A DNA stretch of 64,000 nt from an uncultured Eubacteriales bacterium (GTDB taxonomy: Bacteria > Bacillota > Clostridia > Christensenellales > Aristaeellaceae), in NCBI GenBank assembly GCA_900315675.1, contig OMZY01000004.1:62001-126000 (forward strand). Reading direction: 5' to 3'. The stretch's first letter is position 1. The number at the start of each line of letters is the position of its first letter. A program made the translations under genes and the position numbers. Positions 16,995 through 31,667 of the stretch are shown piece by piece. The notes beneath the pieces are model-generated. The model ran no database searches, was not told where the DNA came from, and saw nothing but the letters and a program-made list of their open reading frames with translations.

Positions 16995-18539
16995 ATGCTT
17001 ACAGTACGGAATTTATCTGTTTCTCATAACAAGGATCTGCGGCCGCTGATCAGGGACCTGTCCTTTACGCTGGCAGGGCGGGAACGCCTGGCTGTCATTG
17101 GCGAAGAGGGCAATGGCAAATCTGCACTGCTGCAGGCCATCATACGCCCGGAGAAACTGAAGGAGTGGGCGGAGATCAGCGGGGAAATTCATTACCCCGG
17201 GGAAAGACTGGGTTATCTGTCCCAGGAAGCACCGGAAGAATGGAACGACCTGCCGGCCTATAAACTATGCATGGAGAACACGGCTTTCGCGGATACGGAT
17301 CCGGGAGAGCTTGCCGAACTATGCAGGCAGCTGTCCATGGATCAGGAGCTATGCTGGAGCGATACCCGATTCGGATTGCTGTCCGGCGGTGAAAAGGTGC
17401 GGCTGAGACTGCTTCTGCTGCTGTGTGAAAAGCCGACTATGCTGCTGCTGGATGAACCGGGAAACGATCTGGATCTGGACGCGATCCGGGCGCTAGAACG
17501 ATTTCTGCTTTCCTGCGGACTTCCGGTTCTCTATGTAAGCCATGACGAGGAACTGCTGCGCGCCACCGCGACGCAGGTGCTGCATCTGGAAAGCCTGCAC
17601 GGCAGGGCAGAACCCCGGTGGACCTGGGACAGGGAACCTTACGCAACCTATGTTACCAACCGGCGGAACGCACTGGACCGGCAGGAGCAGCTATGGAAGA
17701 ACGAGCAGAGGGAACGGCAGATCCAGGAAGAAAAGTTCCGGAAGATTGAAGACGCCGTTGCCCGCGCACAGGAGAATATTTCCAGAAAAGATCCCCACGG
17801 AGGACGGCTGCTGAAAAAGAAAATGAAAGCGGTCAAGAGCCTGGAACACCGCTATGAGCGGGAACGGGAAAACGATACGGAACGGCCTGCGGAGGAAATG
17901 TCCATGTACGCGCTGTTCGAAGGCATCCAGCCCGTTCCCAACGGCAAGGGAGTGCTGGACCTGGAGCTGGAAGAGCTGAACGCAGGAGGACGGAAACTGG
18001 CGGGTAACCTCCGGCTGAAGATTCGCGGCGCTGAGAAAGTGATGATCATAGGCAATAACGGAACTGGAAAAACAACGCTGCTGCGCCTGATTGAAAACAG
18101 ACTGAAGGAGGATTCCAGCCTGAAGACAGCGCTGATGCCCCAGCACTATGAGGAAGGGCTTAACTTTGATATGACCCCGGTGGAATACCTGAACACTGAC
18201 GGAAGCAAGGAACAGATGACCTCCATCCGCGCCTCACTGATTGCCATGAAATTCAACCGGGACGAGCTGGAACATCCGATCCGGTCTCTGTCCGGGGGCC
18301 AGAAGGCAAAGGTGCTGCTGCTGAAGCTGATGACAGCCCGTCCGGATGTACTGCTGATGGATGAACCGACCCGCAATCTCTCGCCGCTTTCAGCTCCGGT
18401 GATGCGGGAAATGATCCGGAACTTTCCGGGAGCGGTGATCTGCGTTACCCACGACCGGCTGCTGATCCGGGACTGGCCGGGAAGGATCCTGAGGCTGACC
18501 GGGCAAGGGCTGGAACCAGCGGAAGAAACGGGCAAATGA
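16995..18539 (+). CDS. ABC-F family ATPase, probable ribosome-protection type
   Basis: The protein has 514 residues with two ABC domains and no membrane segment. Domain 1: Walker A GEEGNGKS (about residue 36), signature LSGGEKVRL, Walker B LLLDEPGNDLDLD, switch SHDEEL. Domain 2: GNNGTGKTTLL, LSGGQKAKVLLLKL, LLMDEPTRNLSPLS, VTHDRLL. Between them lies a long charged linker (about residues 215-300, rich in Arg, Lys and Glu), the segment that reaches the ribosomal P/A site in ABC-F proteins. The attenuator-type leader is characteristic of antibiotic-inducible members (VmlR, Msr, Lsa groups). GGAGGTG lies eight bases before the ATG. The drug range is unknown. Confidence 0.85.
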   Translation: MLTVRNLSVSHNKDLRPLIRDLSFTLAGRERLAVIGEEGNGKSALLQAIIRPEKLKEWAEISGEIHYPGERLGYLSQEAPEEWNDLPAYKLCMENTAFADTDPGELAELCRQLSMDQELCWSDTRFGLLSGGEKVRLRLLLLLCEKPTMLLLDEPGNDLDLDAIRALERFLLSCGLPVLYVSHDEELLRATATQVLHLESLHGRAEPRWTWDREPYATYVTNRRNALDRQEQLWKNEQRERQIQEEKFRKIEDAVARAQENISRKDPHGGRLLKKKMKAVKSLEHRYERERENDTERPAEEMSMYALFEGIQPVPNGKGVLDLELEELNAGGRKLAGNLRLKIRGAEKVMIIGNNGTGKTTLLRLIENRLKEDSSLKTALMPQHYEEGLNFDMTPVEYLNTDGSKEQMTSIRASLIAMKFNRDELEHPIRSLSGGQKAKVLLLKLMTARPDVLLMDEPTRNLSPLSAPVMREMIRNFPGAVICVTHDRLLIRDWPGRILRLTGQGLEPAEETGK

Positions 18540-23825: not shown

Positions 23826-23976
23826 GGGAAAACCTCCTTCGGAACCATCCCACTATATAACGGGCGTAAGACACTTTTCCCTGCAATCAAAAAGTAAAAA
23901 AGTTACATTTTTTCTTTGCAGAACGCATTTTATCACACCCTGACAGGAAAATAAAAACTTTTTTTACGGAGATACC

Positions 23977-24005
23977 TTGACAGGCGAGGTATATTTGTGT
24001 ATTAT
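23977..24005 (+). promoter_or_regulatory. Sigma-A promoter of the padR operon
   Basis: TTGACA at 23977 and TATTAT at 24000 are 17 bases apart. The start near 24012 fits a padR start at 24030. PadR autoregulation at this site is likely by family precedent. Confidence 0.7.
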
Positions 24006-24029: not shown

Positions 24030-24386
24030 ATGACAATTTCAGCAGATCTGCTGCGGGGATACACCGATACAATCATCATGCAGCAGCTGACAGACGCAGA
24101 CGGTTACGGATACGGTATCAGCCGCGCCATCGCAGAAAAAAGCGAAGGCATGGTGCAGCTGAAGGAAGCGACATTGTACACGGCTTTCCGCAGGATGGAG
24201 GAAAACGGATACATCCGTTCCTACTGGGGAGATGAGGCTACCGGTGCCCGGCGGCGGTATTACAGTCTCACGGAACCCGGCAGAACCAAACTGGCGGAAG
24301 AAAAGGACGCATGGGAAGAAACAAGGCGTGTAATGGATACGCTGCTGGATATATGGCAGAAACACTGGTCCAATAATGATCAATAA
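24030..24386 (+). CDS. PadR-family transcriptional regulator
   Basis: The protein has 118 residues. The PadR winged helix-turn-helix is complete: LLRGYTDTIIMQQLTDADGYGYGISRAI, LKEATLYTAFRRMEENGYI, RRRYYSLTEPGRTKL, followed by the short helical dimerisation segment (TRRVMDTLLDIWQ). AAAGGGGGAAG precedes the ATG. The next gene, 30 bp downstream, encodes a DUF1700/DUF4097 protein; PadR plus this type of partner is a common cell-envelope-stress arrangement in Firmicutes. The effector is unknown. Confidence 0.9.
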   Translation: MTISADLLRGYTDTIIMQQLTDADGYGYGISRAIAEKSEGMVQLKEATLYTAFRRMEENGYIRSYWGDEATGARRRYYSLTEPGRTKLAEEKDAWEETRRVMDTLLDIWQKHWSNNDQ

Positions 24387-25532: not shown

Positions 25533-25585
25533 AAAAAAACAAAAATAATGTAACACGGTTTCAGAAAAATAATGGTAATGCATAG

Positions 25586-25625
25586 GAATACCTGTTATAA
25601 TGCAAGTAACAGGTATTCTTTTTTT
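25586..25625 (+). terminator. Intrinsic terminator after the padR operon
   Basis: A perfect 12-bp stem (GAATACCTGTTA with TAACAGGTATTC, 9-nt loop) is followed by a run of T. A TATAAT with extended -10 (TGTTATAAT) lies inside the stem at 25596-25601 and might double as a promoter element for the next operon, but no good -35 is seen. Confidence 0.75.
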
Positions 25626-25682: not shown

Positions 25683-26609
25683 ATGAAAAGCCAGCGCTTT
25701 CGCAAGATTGTGTGTTGGATGACAGGGATGACCCTGTTTTTCTGTCTGCCGTTTTTGCCGGCAATGGCAGAGTTTTATTATGTGGAAAATGAGTGGAATT
25801 ATGTGGACGGTTCCATGGATATCAGCCGCGGCATACCGGAAAACGCCACGGGAGTGATGGACCGCATCCGGCGCAAAGGCGTCCTGCGTGTAGCAACAGA
25901 GCCCTATTTCGCACCGCAGGAGTTTATTGACCCGGAAAAATCCGGAATGGATCAGTACGCAGGAGCGGATATGGAACTGGCCCGGATGATTGCCTCCAGG
26001 ATGGGCGTTGAACTGGAAATTGTGCCGATGGAGTACACCCAGGTTCTGCCCGCCCTGACGGATAATCTGGTAGACCTGACGATTTCCGCCATGGCCTTTA
26101 CTCCCAGGCGGGCCGCATCCTACACGATGTCCAAAGGATATTATTTTACGGAAAGCGCGGCGACAACCGCATTTGTGATCAGAGAGAGCGACCGGGAACT
26201 GTATACTTCCGTTGAGGATCTGTACGACAAAACACTGATTGTCCAGAGCAGTTCCCTGCAGGAAGCACTGGTGGCAAAACATGTGAGGAACTACCGGGAG
26301 TTCCGGCGTGTTTCCTCTGTCCAGACAGTCTATGAAGCGGTCAGGCAGGGAAAAGCGGACGTCGGCATTGTTGACCTGGAAACTGCGCAGACCTACATCC
26401 GGAACAACCAGGGATCGGGACTGATTCTGGCAGAGGGACTGTACTATGTGCCGGAAGAACAGTATCTGGGGAACCGGGTGATTGCCAAAAAGGGCGAACT
26501 TCAGCTGATTTATTTTGTGAACGGTGTTATTGATGAGATCCTGGAAAGCGGAACCTATGAGAAATGGATCGAAGCCGCCCAGGAACGGGCTGATGAGCTG
26601 GGGCTCTGA
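25683..26609 (+). CDS. Secreted amino-acid-type solute-binding protein (SBP_bac_3)
   Basis: The protein has 308 residues. A signal peptide ends at LPAMA (about residue 29) without a lipobox Cys. The mature part shows the family-3 binding-protein order: GVLRVATEPYFAPQEFIDP, AGADMELARMIASRMGVELEIVP, LPALTDNLVDLTISAMAFTPRRA, and a hinge/second lobe with GKADVGIVDLETAQTYI. Such proteins capture amino acids outside the membrane, usually for an ABC importer, but no importer ATPase or permease is nearby. It is followed after 24 bp by the HD-GYP sensor, for which it is a plausible extracytoplasmic ligand subunit. Confidence 0.83.
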   Translation: MKSQRFRKIVCWMTGMTLFFCLPFLPAMAEFYYVENEWNYVDGSMDISRGIPENATGVMDRIRRKGVLRVATEPYFAPQEFIDPEKSGMDQYAGADMELARMIASRMGVELEIVPMEYTQVLPALTDNLVDLTISAMAFTPRRAASYTMSKGYYFTESAATTAFVIRESDRELYTSVEDLYDKTLIVQSSSLQEALVAKHVRNYREFRRVSSVQTVYEAVRQGKADVGIVDLETAQTYIRNNQGSGLILAEGLYYVPEEQYLGNRVIAKKGELQLIYFVNGVIDEILESGTYEKWIEAAQERADELGL

Positions 26610-26633
26610 AGCGGACGCTGAGGAGGGACACAG

Positions 26634-29600
26634 GTGAAGAACAGAAAAATCTTCATATTGGCTTTCAGCCTGCAGATTCTGCTGTGCCTGTTCCTGGACT
26701 GGGGCGGACAGCAGCTGGCCTCCCGCCTGAACTGGCCTTTATGGCTTGATTCGGTCGGAACAGCGCTGGCTGCCTATTTTGCCGGACCCTGGTGCGGCGC
26801 GGTGGTGGGCATGACCTTCAATTTGCTGATTTATATCCTGTACGGCAATCCCTGGTATTATGCCCTGATCAGCATGATTATCGCGATCTTTATCGGCTTT
26901 GCCACAAGGAAAAAGCTTCTGGAGACCCTGCTCGGCACACTTACGGCAGGAACGATCCTCGCCATCATTACGACAGTGAGCGCATATCCGGTCAACCTGA
27001 TCCTGAATCACGGAGATACCGGAAACGCATGGGGCAATGCGGTCATCGGCTATCTCGGGGAAGCGGGCATACCGGTCTGGTCCGGCCTGTTTGCCGGTGA
27101 GCTGTATGTGGAACTTCCTGACAAGCTGCTTTCCCTGCTGATTATTTTCGTGATTGCCAGGATTGTCCGGGCAATCAAGAAAAGCCGGCAGGGGAGAGGA
27201 AAAAACGGATACCGTTCGGGCCCGCTCCGCGGTATTGCGGTTCTGACTGCGGCAGGACTGTGCCTGGCGGGTGCGGGATCCGCTGTGGTTCCGGCACAGG
27301 CAGAGGAAGACAGCCTGTCCGGAGATATCAATTACAACGATTATGTCCAGACCGTTTATTCCAGCACCAACGGACTGCCCTGCGGAGAAGCCAACGATAT
27401 TGACATTACCGGTGACGGGATTATCTGGATTGGCACGTATGCCGGCCTGTACCGTTATAACGGAAGGGAATTCAAGTGGATGGACGGCTTTGATTCCGTC
27501 CGGAATGTCAACTGCCTGTATGTGGACGAGGAAGGACGCCTGTGGATCGGTACAAATGATAACGGCCTGTCCATTGTGATCAATGAACAGGTTGTCAATG
27601 TGATCGACCAGAGCCAGGGCCTGCCCTCCAATTCTGTAAAATCCATTATCCGAAGCTCAGACGGATACTACTACATCGGTACAACCGGCAGCATGCAGAT
27701 TCTGACGCTGAACTGCGGACTGAAGAAGCTGAGCAACCTGTCGGAAGTGGCTTATGCGGATCAGGTGACGGCGGATGACAAAGGAAATGTTGTCGCGGTT
27801 ACCAACGAAGGAACCCTGTTTCTGCTGCAGCAGGGACAGATTATTTCCTCCCGCCAGCTGCCGGAACGGCAGACGGTTTTCAAAAGCTGCACATTTGATC
27901 CGGAAGGTTATCTGCTGGCCGCCACATCAGGCAACGAAGTTTTCCGTTTTGATATCAGCAAAGGCTGGTTTGATCTCAAAAGCACAATTGAATGTCCTGG
28001 CCTGGTGACCATCAAGAACCTTCACTTCCTGGATAACGGAGGGCTCTTCATCTGCGCGGACAACGGCATCGCCTACGTGAAGACGGACGGCACGTATGAA
28101 AGAATCAATACCAATGAATTCAACAATTCCATTGACAACATGATGATGGACTACCAGGGCAACCTGTGGTTTACCTCCTCCAGACTGGGCCTGCTGAGGC
28201 TGGCCGCATCCGATTTCCGGGATATCTATTCCACAGCGGGAATGGAAAACAGGGTAACCAATACCGTTGTACAATGGAACGGCACATACTATTTCGGAAC
28301 GGATAAGGGAATGGATGCGGTGGACCTGAAGGGGATGAACCGGGTCAGGGATGACGTGACCAGACGTTTCAACGGCGTCAGGATCCGATGCATGATGGTG
28401 GACGCGCAGGATCATCTGTGGGTGTGTACCTACGGAAACGGACTGGTGGAGATGGAACCGGACGGCACAGAATATGTCTACAACCGGGACAACGGCGCTT
28501 TCGGAAACCGTGCACGCGTGGTTATGCAGCTGCGGGACGGAACGATCCTGGCGGCGGGAGATACGGGACTGAGCTACATCCGGGACCATATGATCGAGCA
28601 TACCATAGTCTATACTGAAGGCAGGATCAGCAGCATGGTGCTGACCATCACGGAGATGCCCGACGGAACGATCCTGGCCGGTACGGACGGAAACGGACTG
28701 GCGGTGATTGAAAACGGGGAAGTTGTCCGGATGCTCACGCGGGTCAACGGGCTGAGCAGCGAGGTGATTCTCCGGACGGTTCCCGATACCAGGACCGGCG
28801 GCGTGTTTGTGGTTACAAGCAACGGCCTGTGCTACATGAATACGGATGAAACCATCCGCAAACTGGACAATTTCCCTTATTTCAACAATTACGACATCTG
28901 GATCAAGGGAACGGACAGCCTGTTTGTGCTGTCCAGCGCCGGAATATATACGGTGGACAGAAACGAACTGCTCAGCGGTAAAGATGAAATATCCTATGAT
29001 CTGCTGGATTCGCGCAGGGGTCTGAACAGCAGCCTGACAGCCAATGCATGGACCTGGTACAACGAGGACAACGGAGAACTGTACCTGCCCTGTGATACCG
29101 GTGTATTTGTGATTAACACCAATACATTCTCTTCCGGCGCCAAGGTATACAGGATGAGCGTGCCGACCATGCGGATGGACGGACTGATCCACCGGGTGGA
29201 CCGGAGTGTGACGCAGAAGATTCCAAGGGGCATCAGCAGGCTGGAGATCAATCCGGAAGTTATCAACTACACGATCCAGGATCCCAATGTGGGCTATATG
29301 CTGGAAGGCTTTGACAGCGAATGGACCGTTGTGCCCCAGAATTCCCTGGGAACCATATCCTATACAAACCTGTCCGCCGGAGATTATGTATTCCATCTGG
29401 CGGTGTTTGACAACAACTGTGAGAATGTGATTGTTGAGCGTACATACAACATTACCAAGGAAAAGGAAATGTATGACAACAACTGGTTCATATTCTACAT
29501 TCTGTCTGTTCCGATGTTTGCTGTGGGCTGGGTAACCTGGCTGCTGGTGAAACGCCATGAACGTAAAATGCAGGAACAGCTGGAAATGGCGAACAAACAG

Positions 29601-30323
29601 ATTGAGATGGGTAAGCAGACGGTGATTGCCATTGCGCGGACGGTGGACGCCAAGGATCAGCGGACAAGCGATCACAGTAAACGCGTTGCCATCTATTCCG
29701 CTCAGATTGCCCGGGCATACGGGCTGGACGAAAAACAGTGCAGGGATATTGAATGGTCTGCCCAGATGCATGATATCGGTAAGATAGGCATTCCGGACGC
29801 GATCCTGAACAAACCGGCCAGACTGACGGATGATGAATACGCAACCATGAAATCCCATACCACCCGGGGCGCGGAAATCCTGAAGGATTTTACGCTGCTG
29901 GACAATGTTATTGACGGGGCCCAGTACCACCACGAACGGTATGACGGCCGCGGCTATCCGAAAGGCCTGAAGGGGGAGGAAATCCCGCTGTTTGCCCGGA
30001 TTATCGGTGTGGCGGACGCTTTCGACGCCATGACTGCGAACCGTATTTACCGCCAGCAGATGGACTTCAGTTATGTGCTGGGTGAGATGCAGCGGTGCAG
30101 GGGAACGCAGTTTGACCCGAAATTTGTGGACATCCTGCTGAAACTGATCCATGACGGAACCATTGACCTGAATATGATTTACCATGTTCCGAAGGAGGAA
30201 AGCGACCAGGCGGAAAAAGACGCCGCGATCGCCCGGGACGAAAAGGCAAGGGAAGCCGGTCCGGCTGTGGCGCCGCAGAGTTTTGCTGAAATTAAAACAA
30301 AAGAGCAGGGAGGGAAGGCGTGA
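26634..30323 (+). CDS. ECF-S-like / beta-propeller / Y_Y_Y / HD-GYP membrane c-di-GMP phosphodiesterase
   Basis: The protein has 1229 residues with a GTG start behind GGAGG. In order: five to six membrane helices (about 1-182) of ECF-transporter-S-component character (WPLWLDSVGTALAAYFAGPW, GAVVGMTFNLLIYILYGNPW); another hydrophobic segment (about 198-220) ending in a cleavage-like AQA; Reg_prop beta-propeller blades from about 235 (IIWIGTYAGLYRY, RLWIGTNDNGLS, HLWVCTYGNGLVE); a Y_Y_Y domain (about 868-935); a membrane helix (about 949-971); a short coiled coil; and an HD-GYP domain (about 990-1180) with HDIGKIGIPD and DGRGYPKG intact. The expected output is cleavage of c-di-GMP in response to an extracytoplasmic signal. 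Confidence 0.85.
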   Translation: MKNRKIFILAFSLQILLCLFLDWGGQQLASRLNWPLWLDSVGTALAAYFAGPWCGAVVGMTFNLLIYILYGNPWYYALISMIIAIFIGFATRKKLLETLLGTLTAGTILAIITTVSAYPVNLILNHGDTGNAWGNAVIGYLGEAGIPVWSGLFAGELYVELPDKLLSLLIIFVIARIVRAIKKSRQGRGKNGYRSGPLRGIAVLTAAGLCLAGAGSAVVPAQAEEDSLSGDINYNDYVQTVYSSTNGLPCGEANDIDITGDGIIWIGTYAGLYRYNGREFKWMDGFDSVRNVNCLYVDEEGRLWIGTNDNGLSIVINEQVVNVIDQSQGLPSNSVKSIIRSSDGYYYIGTTGSMQILTLNCGLKKLSNLSEVAYADQVTADDKGNVVAVTNEGTLFLLQQGQIISSRQLPERQTVFKSCTFDPEGYLLAATSGNEVFRFDISKGWFDLKSTIECPGLVTIKNLHFLDNGGLFICADNGIAYVKTDGTYERINTNEFNNSIDNMMMDYQGNLWFTSSRLGLLRLAASDFRDIYSTAGMENRVTNTVVQWNGTYYFGTDKGMDAVDLKGMNRVRDDVTRRFNGVRIRCMMVDAQDHLWVCTYGNGLVEMEPDGTEYVYNRDNGAFGNRARVVMQLRDGTILAAGDTGLSYIRDHMIEHTIVYTEGRISSMVLTITEMPDGTILAGTDGNGLAVIENGEVVRMLTRVNGLSSEVILRTVPDTRTGGVFVVTSNGLCYMNTDETIRKLDNFPYFNNYDIWIKGTDSLFVLSSAGIYTVDRNELLSGKDEISYDLLDSRRGLNSSLTANAWTWYNEDNGELYLPCDTGVFVINTNTFSSGAKVYRMSVPTMRMDGLIHRVDRSVTQKIPRGISRLEINPEVINYTIQDPNVGYMLEGFDSEWTVVPQNSLGTISYTNLSAGDYVFHLAVFDNNCENVIVERTYNITKEKEMYDNNWFIFYILSVPMFAVGWVTWLLVKRHERKMQEQLEMANKQIEMGKQTVIAIARTVDAKDQRTSDHSKRVAIYSAQIARAYGLDEKQCRDIEWSAQMHDIGKIGIPDAILNKPARLTDDEYATMKSHTTRGAEILKDFTLLDNVIDGAQYHHERYDGRGYPKGLKGEEIPLFARIIGVADAFDAMTANRIYRQQMDFSYVLGEMQRCRGTQFDPKFVDILLKLIHDGTIDLNMIYHVPKEESDQAEKDAAIARDEKAREAGPAVAPQSFAEIKTKEQGGKA

Positions 30324-31513
30324 TGAAAAGAATCCTGCTGACCGTGGTCATCTGTCTGCTTGTGCTGGCTGCCGCGTCTTTCCTGACCGGCTTCTGGAAT
30401 AATTCTCCGAAGATTAACGTGACGCGAGTCGGATTTGTATATTCCGAAGATGAGAGCACGCCCTATTCCGCCAACTTTGCCAAGGCGCAGCACGCGCTGG
30501 AAGAGGAATATGGAGACAAGGTGGAAATTCTTTTCAAAAGCAACGTGCACAGCCGCGATTCTGAACAGCCTATACGGGATCTGATCAGGGACGGGGTCAG
30601 GATTCTCTTTATCAACCTGGATTCCGATATTCCCGTTACGCTGGCCAGAGAGTTTCCGGATGTACAGTTCTGCCAGGTTTCGCTGCCGACGATCGGTATG
30701 GACGGGACGCCGGAGAATTATCATTCTTTCAACGGAGAGATCTTTCAGGCACGGTATGTGAGCGGTATTGCCGCGGGCATGAAACTGAGACAGCTCCTGG
30801 ATAACGGTGCGCTGCTGCCGCGGGACGCGCTGGTCGGGTATGTGGGCGCAAATGCCAGCACAGAGGTAATCTCCGGTTATACAGCCTTCCTGCTGGGTGT
30901 GCGCAGCGTGGCGCCGGAAGCAACGATGCGGGTCCGTTATACCGGAAGCTGGAGCAACTATGCGGAGGAGAAGGAACAGACAAAGGAACTGATTGAGGAA
31001 GGCTGTGTGATTATCGCGCAGCATGTCAATACGACGGCTTCCGCGATGGCCTGTGAGGAGGCCGTTGCCTCCGGACGGAACGTATATCACGTGGGCTATC
31101 ACCAGAGCATGATGGATATCGCGCCCTCCTGCGCACTGGTCAGCATACGGACCAACTGGGCACCGTATGCCATCCAGGCGGTGAAGGCAGTTATGAAAAA
31201 CGAAAAGATTGAAAACGTGGTGGAAGCCCACGCACATGGCCGGGATATGAGCGCAGGCTTTGAAAACGGGTGGGTGGAACTGCTGGAGCTGAATCAATCC
31301 ATTGCCGCTGAGGGAACGAAAGAGAAGACCGACAATGCCATTGAGAATATGATCAAAGGCAAAACGAAGGTTTTCAGCGGCAATTATACAGGCGTGAACC
31401 CGCTGAATCCGGCTAACATTATTGATCTGAACACCGGTTATACCGAGAACCAGTATTCCTCCAACCCGTCTTTCGGATATGTTCTGAAGGAAGTTATTAC
31501 AGTGGAAAACTGA
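30323..31513 (+). CDS. Membrane-anchored BMP-family solute-binding protein
   Basis: The protein has 396 residues. An N-terminal hydrophobic helix (about 4-23, ILLTVVICLLVLAAASFLTG) is not followed by a lipobox, so the protein is probably held by an uncleaved anchor. The rest follows BMP/PnrA-type nucleoside-binding proteins: VGFVYSEDESTPYSANFAKA, YVSGIAAGMKL, VGYVGANASTEVISGYTAFLLGVRS, and the late VYHVGYHQSMMDIAP. It overlaps the HD-GYP gene by one base (TGATG). With no transporter genes present, it probably feeds ligand information to the neighbouring sensor. Confidence 0.83.
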   Translation: MKRILLTVVICLLVLAAASFLTGFWNNSPKINVTRVGFVYSEDESTPYSANFAKAQHALEEEYGDKVEILFKSNVHSRDSEQPIRDLIRDGVRILFINLDSDIPVTLAREFPDVQFCQVSLPTIGMDGTPENYHSFNGEIFQARYVSGIAAGMKLRQLLDNGALLPRDALVGYVGANASTEVISGYTAFLLGVRSVAPEATMRVRYTGSWSNYAEEKEQTKELIEEGCVIIAQHVNTTASAMACEEAVASGRNVYHVGYHQSMMDIAPSCALVSIRTNWAPYAIQAVKAVMKNEKIENVVEAHAHGRDMSAGFENGWVELLELNQSIAAEGTKEKTDNAIENMIKGKTKVFSGNYTGVNPLNPANIIDLNTGYTENQYSSNPSFGYVLKEVITVEN

Positions 31514-31634: not shown

Positions 31635-31667
31635 AAAGCGCGATCCGGAAGGATCGCGCTTTGTTTT
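31635..31667. terminator. Bidirectional intrinsic terminator
   Basis: A perfect 12-bp stem (AAAGCGCGATCC / GGATCGCGCTTT, GGAA tetraloop) is followed by GTTTTG. It lies between the solute-binding operon and the convergent small membrane-protein gene. Confidence 0.85.

Follow-up and report, generated by a model that had tools for sequence, protein, structure and literature searches.

A putative binding-protein-assisted HD-GYP receptor encoded with Bmp and SBP_bac_3 genes in a clostridial operon

Regulation of a c-di-GMP enzyme by a periplasmic binding protein has been described for NspS-MbaA and PruR-DcpA in the accessible parts of two reports (PMC8967002; PMC13259868). In PruR-DcpA, the pterin receptor of Agrobacterium, transcription is coupled and the ligand drives c-di-GMP breakdown, and the available portion of the report also records numerous homologous gene pairs (PMC13259868). 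Interaction with signalling receptors was known for 13 of 22 families of solute-binding proteins (SBPs), as given in the part of the source at hand (PMC9602780), and SBP_bac_3 alone had been studied among PBP-clan domains within c-di-GMP-sensing proteins, as given in the accessible text of another (PMC8846402). A narrow search of the open-access literature returned no report in which an HD-GYP protein was linked with either a member of the Bmp family or an S component of ECF transporters. To our knowledge, the input signal is unknown for most HD-GYP proteins. The input becomes directly testable when an HD-GYP protein has constant binding-protein partners with pockets legible in their sequences. 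We describe here an operon that is probably a dedicated nutrient sensor, an SBP-assisted c-di-GMP phosphodiesterase receptor, and not an importer, as judged from its sequence and gene order.

The window, the whole 64,000-nucleotide stretch of DNA that was analyzed, comes from a gut bacterium. Three genes lie on its forward strand: an SBP_bac_3 solute-binding protein gene (25683..26609, 308 aa, ATG start), the gene for the HD-GYP receptor protein (26634..30323, 1229 aa, GTG start), and a Bmp (PnrA-like) solute-binding protein gene (30320..31513, 397 aa). The initial annotation had placed these three contiguously at 25683-31513, which the open reading frames and Pfam confirmed: SBP_bac_3 scored 7e-24 (84.5 bits, cut-off 26.4), Bmp 1.1e-23 (84.2 bits, cut-off 24.1), and the HD-GYP protein matched HD_5 at 2e-41 (142 bits, cut-off 27.2), Reg_prop at 3e-19, and Y_Y_Y at 1.6e-11, the latter two also above their cut-offs. 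The 24-bp gap reported between the first two genes was recovered from the ORF coordinates. The TGATG overlap reported at the second junction, which reads GTGATG, holds for an ATG start of Bmp (1 bp), whereas a GTG start gives an overlap of 4 bp. An intrinsic terminator with a 12-pair stem follows on the forward strand (31635..31662). Upstream, also on the forward strand, a palindrome with a T-run (25584..25620) overlaps the extended -10 element TGTTATAAT (25593-25601) and is a candidate for the operon promoter and/or the terminator of the upstream gene. TATAAT within this palindrome was also present at L033, L034, L112, L035, L036, L037, and L145, and was not found at L110. A second ATACCT-N-AGGTAT palindrome (23972..23992, forward strand) lies at the promoter of a gene that we take to be PadR-like (ORF from ATG 24030 to 24386), and the two could be a shared operator. 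Comparison of the window with two relatives, L035 and L112, gave dN/dS of approximately 0.03-0.11 for all three genes (dN 0.05-0.18, dS 0.92-2.13).

Within the central protein, which is encoded on the forward strand, an ECF-S-like/5TMR-LYT-like membrane domain (26715..27167, residues 28-178) is followed by an internal signal peptide (27213..27302) with a putative signal-peptidase I site between AQA and EED, after residue 223. Next come an extracellular Reg_prop beta-propeller with Y_Y_Y (27339..29456, residues ~236-941), a second membrane anchor read by eye (29475..29549, residues ~948-972), and the HD-GYP phosphodiesterase domain (29637..30122, residues 1002-1163), whose catalytic motif residues are intact. 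These motif positions were identical in all 109 orthologues covering them, and H1014 was identical in 110/110. The domain is predicted to hydrolyze c-di-GMP; its best solved match was 5z7c, a 3'3'-cGAMP phosphodiesterase, which counts against the sensor reading. Synthesis of c-di-GMP is plausible because the host genome itself has 16 GGDEF matches. The c-di-GMP-I riboswitch was not found in the 16 genus genomes searched, and was present in 1 of 25 genomes, outside the host's family.

Orthologues were accepted when the alignment began no later than residue 30, with 44% identity or more, and over 900 aa, and 130 loci became 112 distinct full-length orthologues after merging by identical last 600 residues. 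This filter excluded L151, whose reported alignment begins at 216 and where SBP and Bmp genes both occur, and the fragment L176, where Bmp was present. Most of the orthologues sampled came from searches with the HD protein. L095-L097 and L110-L112 initially came from a Bmp search, and the HD query also recovered their six genomes. One set of matches comprised the best 80 of 533. A neighbour was counted if it lay no more than 400 bp away and on the same strand, a Bmp gene being scored present when a profile match was so placed. All 106 orthologues with a visible 3' side had a Bmp gene there, which ruled out a chance neighbourhood, and the offset between the HD-GYP and Bmp genes was -4 in 73 of 105 script-scored orthologue loci. 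Some Bmp copies were truncated by contig ends or divided between two frames (e.g., L164, L208, L220, L222, L230, L252), the HD frame of L237 ends prematurely, and L159 was scored as having Bmp, which there lies after the second piece of a split HD gene.

An SBP gene was found 5' of the HD-GYP gene in 77 of 110 visible cases. Its absence from the other 33 was mainly confined to one Lachnospiraceae-rich clade in a tree of 109 orthologues (at least 1100 aa) and 3 paralogues, made by a quick search and with several weak forks. Because the SBP is missing mainly in one clade, the core is the HD-GYP and Bmp pair and the SBP is dispensable. The receptor cannot depend on it, as 33/110 loci lack it, which counts against the sensor reading. 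The triad of the initial annotation was thus found well beyond this genome, with the HD-GYP and Bmp genes as a fixed unit, but the SBP gene is not an obligatory member. Among the other same-genus orthologue loci, 18 of 20 kept all three genes in unchanged order, the exceptions being L048, without SBP, and L050, where the contig stops inside the HD gene. Remnants of SBP were not found at L048, L239, or L211 by tblastn (E 0.19 or worse). One fixed substitute gene at the SBP-less loci was rejected, as the 5' neighbours vary by locus (ten proteins judged by eye). Correlated-distance values covered 65 triads.

The Bmp protein has an N-terminal membrane anchor, no lipobox, and a purine-base-type pocket, and the SBP has an N-terminal signal peptide that ends, by eye, at AMA before E, also with no lipobox. 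We compared 98 Bmp sequences (over 350 aa) and 74 SBP sequences (over 250 aa). The closest solved relatives of Bmp by sequence profile were AtzT and 3s99 (126 and 142 bits). Pocket residues of AtzT, as given in the available part of its description (PMC6834077), were mapped onto the Bmp set, and the mapped pocket (an aromatic at Y49, W211, E182, D/N237) was complete in 87/98, including the window's protein. At least one mapped residue was missing in 11/98, and the AtzT contact Ser97 was not kept in the Bmp proteins; both points weigh against a sensor. A nucleoside-type ligand had been proposed initially, but the mostly retained AtzT/3s99-like pocket fits a purine base better, and a purine base is the likelier ligand. 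In the SBP, Arg143, presumably the carboxylate-binding Arg, was present in 74/74, and the predicted ligand is an amino-acid-like carboxylate. Asp231, the expected amino-group holder, was D in 62/74, which again counts against the sensor reading.

In the mechanism that we favor, the membrane-tethered Bmp would capture a small ligand outside the cell, predicted to be a purine base, while the secreted SBP_bac_3, in this lineage, would capture an extracellular ligand, predicted to be an amino-acid-like carboxylate. Bmp and SBP would then bind the extracellular face of the receptor, either at the beta-propeller/Y_Y_Y or at the ECF-S-like membrane domain, and the signal would be relayed through the second transmembrane helix and the linker to the HD-GYP domain, which would break down c-di-GMP. 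We infer the docking, the ligands, the direction of the response, c-di-GMP as the substrate, and cleavage by signal peptidase. If true, this mechanism would add clostridial HD-GYP proteins to the receptors that work with a binding protein as co-receptor. It is unlikely, though conceivable, that the central gene encodes a polyprotein split by signal peptidase into an ECF-S-like protein and a propeller HD-GYP receptor, with Bmp and SBP as co-receptors and the supply of purines and amino acids integrated; this would make a two-input co-receptor built of transporter parts that reports through c-di-GMP breakdown. The possibly cleavable signal sequence that joins the transporter-like and sensor parts is a second testable point.

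Orphan SBPs serving distant permeases are known, and the gene order is compatible with a service of the operon's SBPs to distant importers. Bmp and SBP could then be ordinary importer subunits for distant ABC permeases, with the HD-GYP gene co-transcribed for joint induction of uptake and c-di-GMP, which we consider rather improbable. The host's second Bmp gene does adjoin an ABC ATPase (G000:C40), and importer genes accompany a few units, which counts against a sensor: an ABC ATPase and permease lie immediately 5' of the unit in L256 (a 370-aa gene 5' of these is taken as their SBP), an ABC ATPase is encoded 1.8 kb 5' of that in L241, with an SBP-like gene farther up, and genes for an SBP and two ABC ATPases follow the unit in L264. 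However, of the 69 units flanked on each side by 4 kb or more, only 4 had an ABC ATPase within 4 kb (8/112 loci when any available flank length was counted). For comparison, 14 ordinary Bmp genes of the same bacterial order were hand-picked from the best-scoring Bmp matches, and 11 of them had a same-strand ABC ATPase within 1 kb. These ATPases were called by profile; a motif test was rejected, having missed most of those beside ordinary Bmp genes. Importer genes are therefore not regular in homologous loci, and the claim that the operon has no transporter stands for adjacent ABC genes, although not for the ECF-S-like residues 28-178. No ABC ATPase was found near the operon in the window, and an ABC protein at 16995-18539 was rejected as its partner, because Pfam found two ABC domains in it but no membrane domain; we take it to resemble an ABC-F protein. 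The triad Bmp also forms a separate subfamily, scoring 439-776 bits (copies of at least 363 aa) against 208-274 for the 14 ordinary proteins with a profile built from triad members, and it is constant, whereas the 5' neighbours at SBP-less loci vary. Importer SBPs in monoderm bacteria usually carry a lipobox, but none was found in 68/74 SBP and 89/98 Bmp sequences from the triad's hosts, which we take to be monoderm.

The membrane domain itself offers another explanation, which also seems to us improbable, namely that the ECF-S-like part is freed by signal peptidase as a true vitamin or nucleobase S component, fed by Bmp and SBP and acting with the shared ECF module, which would make the locus a transporter fused to a sensor. 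In profile comparison, residues 28-178 come out as homologues of ECF S components, but with scores below family cut-offs (78.9 bits against 180 for NCBIfam ECF_S_CD3073, and 19.2 against 30.7 for Pfam PF12822). ECF_S_CD3073 was matched by all 82 orthologues scanned, from 111 available ECF-S stretches, and the transporter-like N-terminal part may be cut off by signal peptidase: a relaxed signal-peptidase rule was satisfied at the internal signal peptide in 112/112 orthologues, a count without a control, and the strict [AV]xA in 93/112, against a mean of 53 and a maximum of 71 in 1000 shuffles. A CbiQ/EcfT gene was present in 24 of 25 genomes, the host's included, but the host's match is on a different contig. 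Six shorter ECF-S/HD-GYP proteins share the domain, and the DNA stretch covered around them contains neither a Bmp nor an SBP match, which fits a sensory module; the ECF-S domain was likewise rejected as the cause of the Bmp pairing. Last, the propeller/Y_Y_Y could sense an oligosaccharide directly, with Bmp and SBP as scavengers that serve a separate purpose in a shared nutritional response. The propeller is homologous to those of the hybrid two-component sensors 3v9f and 4a2l, the latter presumably BT4663, and ectodomains of the BT4663 type can bind ligands directly with no binding protein. Furthermore, for 21 propeller paralogues (9 of them run through Pfam), the stretches covered contained neither Bmp nor SBP matches. 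Nevertheless, the Bmp gene is constant and mostly overlapping in this subfamily and absent beside the paralogues, and we regard direct sensing as very unlikely.

The favored SBP-assisted receptor resembles NspS-MbaA, the polyamine receptor of V. cholerae, in that a solute-binding protein is paired with a membrane c-di-GMP enzyme, but MbaA is bifunctional and makes or degrades c-di-GMP, as described in the accessible part of the report (PMC8967002). The operon also differs in its HD-GYP output, in its Bmp in all visible cases and optional SBP_bac_3, and in its hosts, which are mostly Bacillota. We assume that NspS, the single SBP partner of MbaA, is PotD-like. As in PruR-DcpA, a binding-protein gene adjoins the membrane-enzyme gene on the same strand, which is known here from gene order; the fold of PruR is sulfite-oxidase-like, however, and DcpA carries PDE and DGC domains, according to the available portion of that report (PMC13259868). 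Because its output is HD-GYP, the operon is not a member of either system, although it may work alike. We know of no propeller or ECF-S domain in DcpA.

The propeller ectodomain is shared with Bacteroides hybrid two-component sensors (4a2l), and the ectodomain of BT4663-type sensors, we presume, also includes Y_Y_Y. Unlike those sensors, the operon's receptor begins with an ECF-S-like domain, is partnered by Bmp and SBP, and has HD-GYP as its output. Most of the purine-stacking and hydrogen-bonding residues of AtzT and 3s99 are retained in Bmp; AtzT is thought to take part in uptake, in the text available (PMC6834077), whereas the operon's Bmp adjoins an HD-GYP gene. In S. aureus LtaS, SpsB cuts the polytopic N-terminal membrane domain from the extracellular domain, as described in the part of the source at hand (PMC10865820). 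The HD-GYP protein is like LtaS in its AxA-type site after a hydrophobic segment, where cleavage is predicted; LtaS releases its enzyme, whereas the distal part of the HD-GYP protein would remain anchored by the second helix.

Open reading frames on the + strand bore out the gene positions of the initial annotation: an SBP_bac_3 gene (308 aa, 25683-26609; its product is termed SBP here), an HD-GYP gene (1229 aa, 26634-30323) and a Bmp gene (397 aa, 30320-31513), together the triad. The Pfam domains which that annotation named for them were all above family cut-offs. The HD/Bmp junction is GTGATG, giving the Bmp gene an overlap of 4 bp with a GTG start or 1 bp with an ATG start, and a sequence scan placed a terminator 3' of the Bmp gene (31635-31662, + strand). 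Purifying selection was detected on all three genes by comparison with two relatives. An extended -10 that the promoter scan did not list, TGTTATAAT (25593-25601), lies upstream within a palindrome and T-run (25584-25620), so transcription of the operon probably starts from a promoter of its own. Two ATACCT-N-AGGTAT palindromes were observed, one in the triad promoter (25588-25616) and one in the promoter of a gene that we take to be PadR-like (23972-23992). None occurred in 100 window shuffles; across the genome the motif was present at 4 places and its reversed control at 3, so by itself it does not exceed chance. Where a PadR-like gene was found upstream (8 loci), the palindrome, allowing 1 mismatch, preceded the triad in 7 and the PadR-like gene in 5. 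A shared operator is possible, as is merely a terminator with a promoter inside.

An HD-GYP orthologue, matched for the greater part of its length, was present in 21 of 25 genomes of the same genus, own genome included; some were reported as two separate matches or truncated at the end of a contig. The family sample of 200 genomes gave 34 full-length matches in 32 genomes, own included. At E 1e-130, the class sample yielded matches in 2 of its 390 other genomes, and these two were also the ones recovered among the 397 others of the phylum sample. The best 80 of 533 confirmed relatives from a named search were mostly ruminant-gut Clostridia assemblies, with isolates of Lachnospiraceae also present, among them Butyrivibrio sp. 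NC2007 and Lachnospiraceae bacterium AB2028. Two contigs labelled Chloroflexi/Flexilinea were also among these 80; loci L236 and L238, on contigs so labelled, were complete triads nested among Bacillota on the tree, reflecting either transfer between phyla or mislabelled assemblies.

We reduced 130 loci to 112 distinct ones. The arrangement proved to be conserved beyond its own genome, with the complete triad in 72 of the 112; another 31 had HD and Bmp genes without SBP, and 8 were cut by contig ends (SBP/cut 4, no SBP/cut 2, cut/Bmp 2). In the last, L159, a stop or frameshift divides the HD gene and Bmp follows the second piece. Two genomes, G567 and G533, had two triad copies each (L156, L157, L158 and L159). 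As a single unit, the proposed operon held for Bmp, which followed the HD gene in 106/106 visible loci, and partially for SBP (upstream in 77/110 visible). On the HD tree the SBP label must change 6 times, and counting well-supported branches alone still demands at least 4. A 28-row clade, mostly labelled Lachnospiraceae (27 without SBP, 1 cut by a contig end), sits inside SBP-bearing rows, which suggests that SBP was lost there. The outermost HD orthologue, L264, also has no SBP gene upstream, so SBP may be ancestral or a later gain. Pairwise-distance correlations across 65 triads (Bmp-HD 0.81, SBP-HD 0.68, SBP-Bmp 0.44) fit common inheritance and are no proof of contact.

The initial annotation had proposed ligand reporting without a transporter, to be refuted if homologous loci regularly included ABC importer genes. 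ABC ATPases were sought with a profile partly built from six of the test loci. This profile works, since it recovered a same-strand ATPase within 1 kb of 11 out of 14 ordinary Bmp genes from the same order. Such genes were not regular companions of HD-Bmp units: among the 69 with flanks of 4 kb or more on each side, 4 had an ATPase no farther than 4 kb from the HD gene and 1 had a same-strand ATPase no farther than 2.3 kb. Counting all loci with whatever flank was available, the 4-kb figure was 8/112. Three loci are counter-examples. Immediately upstream of the unit in L256 are an ATPase gene and a permease-like gene, preceded by a 370-aa gene that may be the SBP of that adjoining pair; in L241 an ATPase lies 1.8 kb upstream, with an SBP-like gene beyond it; downstream of the unit in L264 are an SBP and two ATPases.

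Residues 28-178 of the HD-GYP protein resemble the ECF transporter S component family ECF_S_CD3073 (1e-20, under the family cut-off), and residues 41-110 weakly resemble 5TM-5TMR_LYT (1.6e-4, below cut-off; above it with the domain scanned alone). Among 82 orthologous N-terminal domains scanned (E 0.01), ECF_S_CD3073 matched 82, 5TM-5TMR_LYT 54 and PF12822 44. A basic linker follows, then a hydrophobic stretch ending AQA|EED (residue 223), a Reg_prop propeller, a Y_Y_Y domain, a membrane helix and finally the HD-GYP domain. Residues of the HD-GYP catalytic motif were kept in 109/109 orthologues long enough to include them. The hydrophobic stretch satisfied the relaxed -3/-1 signal peptidase rule in 112/112 orthologues, the shuffle control covering the strict form only; that form, [AV]xA, occurred in 93/112, whereas 1000 tail shuffles averaged 53 and never exceeded 71. 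Because the 21 propeller paralogues without the ECF-S part start with a signal peptide in the equivalent position (by eye), an ECF-S-like gene was probably fused ahead of a secreted-ectodomain sensor that kept its signal peptide. The site here is putative and predicted by sequence rule; as a precedent, Staphylococcus aureus LtaS is cut by signal peptidase behind its polytopic domain (PMC10865820). The ECF-S-like domain is a recurrent predicted input module of HD-GYP proteins. Loci L268-L272 and L058 (11236-13368), of the same genus, encode HD-GYP proteins of 711-746 aa also headed by it, with no Bmp or SBP match within the flanking stretch examined. No Bmp or SBP match was found in the stretches examined at the 21 propeller-paralogue loci either; outputs of 9 scanned paralogues were HD (4), SpoIIE phosphatase (2), GGDEF (1) or none (2). 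Reg_prop/Y_Y_Y-type sensors at L056, L060 and L171, in the family and genus, have a SpoIIE-type phosphatase or GGDEF in place of HD-GYP.

SBP Arg143, in a TPxR stretch, was present in 74/74 sequences, and Asp231 was D in 62/74 and N in 7/74; in relatives these presumably bind the carboxylate and amino group. A lipobox was absent from 68/74 SBP and 89/98 Bmp sequences. Bmp Cys12 (30353-30355) falls within the membrane anchor and lacks a surrounding lipobox; this position was C in 75/98, A in 14 and S in 9. The Bmp profile scored 142 bits against 3s99 and 126 bits against AtzT (6pi5), next chains reaching at most 32 bits. AtzT is reported to have held guanine, and 3s99 to have adenine modelled (PMC6834077). 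AtzT contacts were mapped by eye through the profile alignment, a numbering offset of 5 fitting 9/9 named residues: Tyr45 corresponds to Y49, Trp194 to W211, Glu165 to E182, Asn218 to H235 and Asn220 to N/D237. In 87/98 Bmp proteins, W211, E182 and D/N237 accompanied an aromatic residue at 49; Ser97 is not conserved (L100, variable).

The observation is real and the arrangement conserved, with more specificity than the initial annotation could know. The triad is most likely a binding-protein-assisted receptor, in which Bmp would be the main co-receptor, SBP a second, lineage-dependent input and the HD-GYP domain the output. Turnover of c-di-GMP in the host is plausible from gene content, because its genome has 16 GGDEF and 2 HD_5 matches, the triad protein being one of the two HD_5 proteins found. 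This kind of system is already known; what is new is the combination of HD-GYP, Bmp and optional SBP_bac_3 in clostridial hosts, together with an ECF-S-like domain with internal signal peptide on the HD-GYP protein. SBP binding to signaling receptors is described as widespread (PMC9602780). The parallels NspS-MbaA (PMC8967002) and PruR-DcpA (PMC13259868), which are likewise binding-protein-assisted, belong to Gram-negative bacteria.
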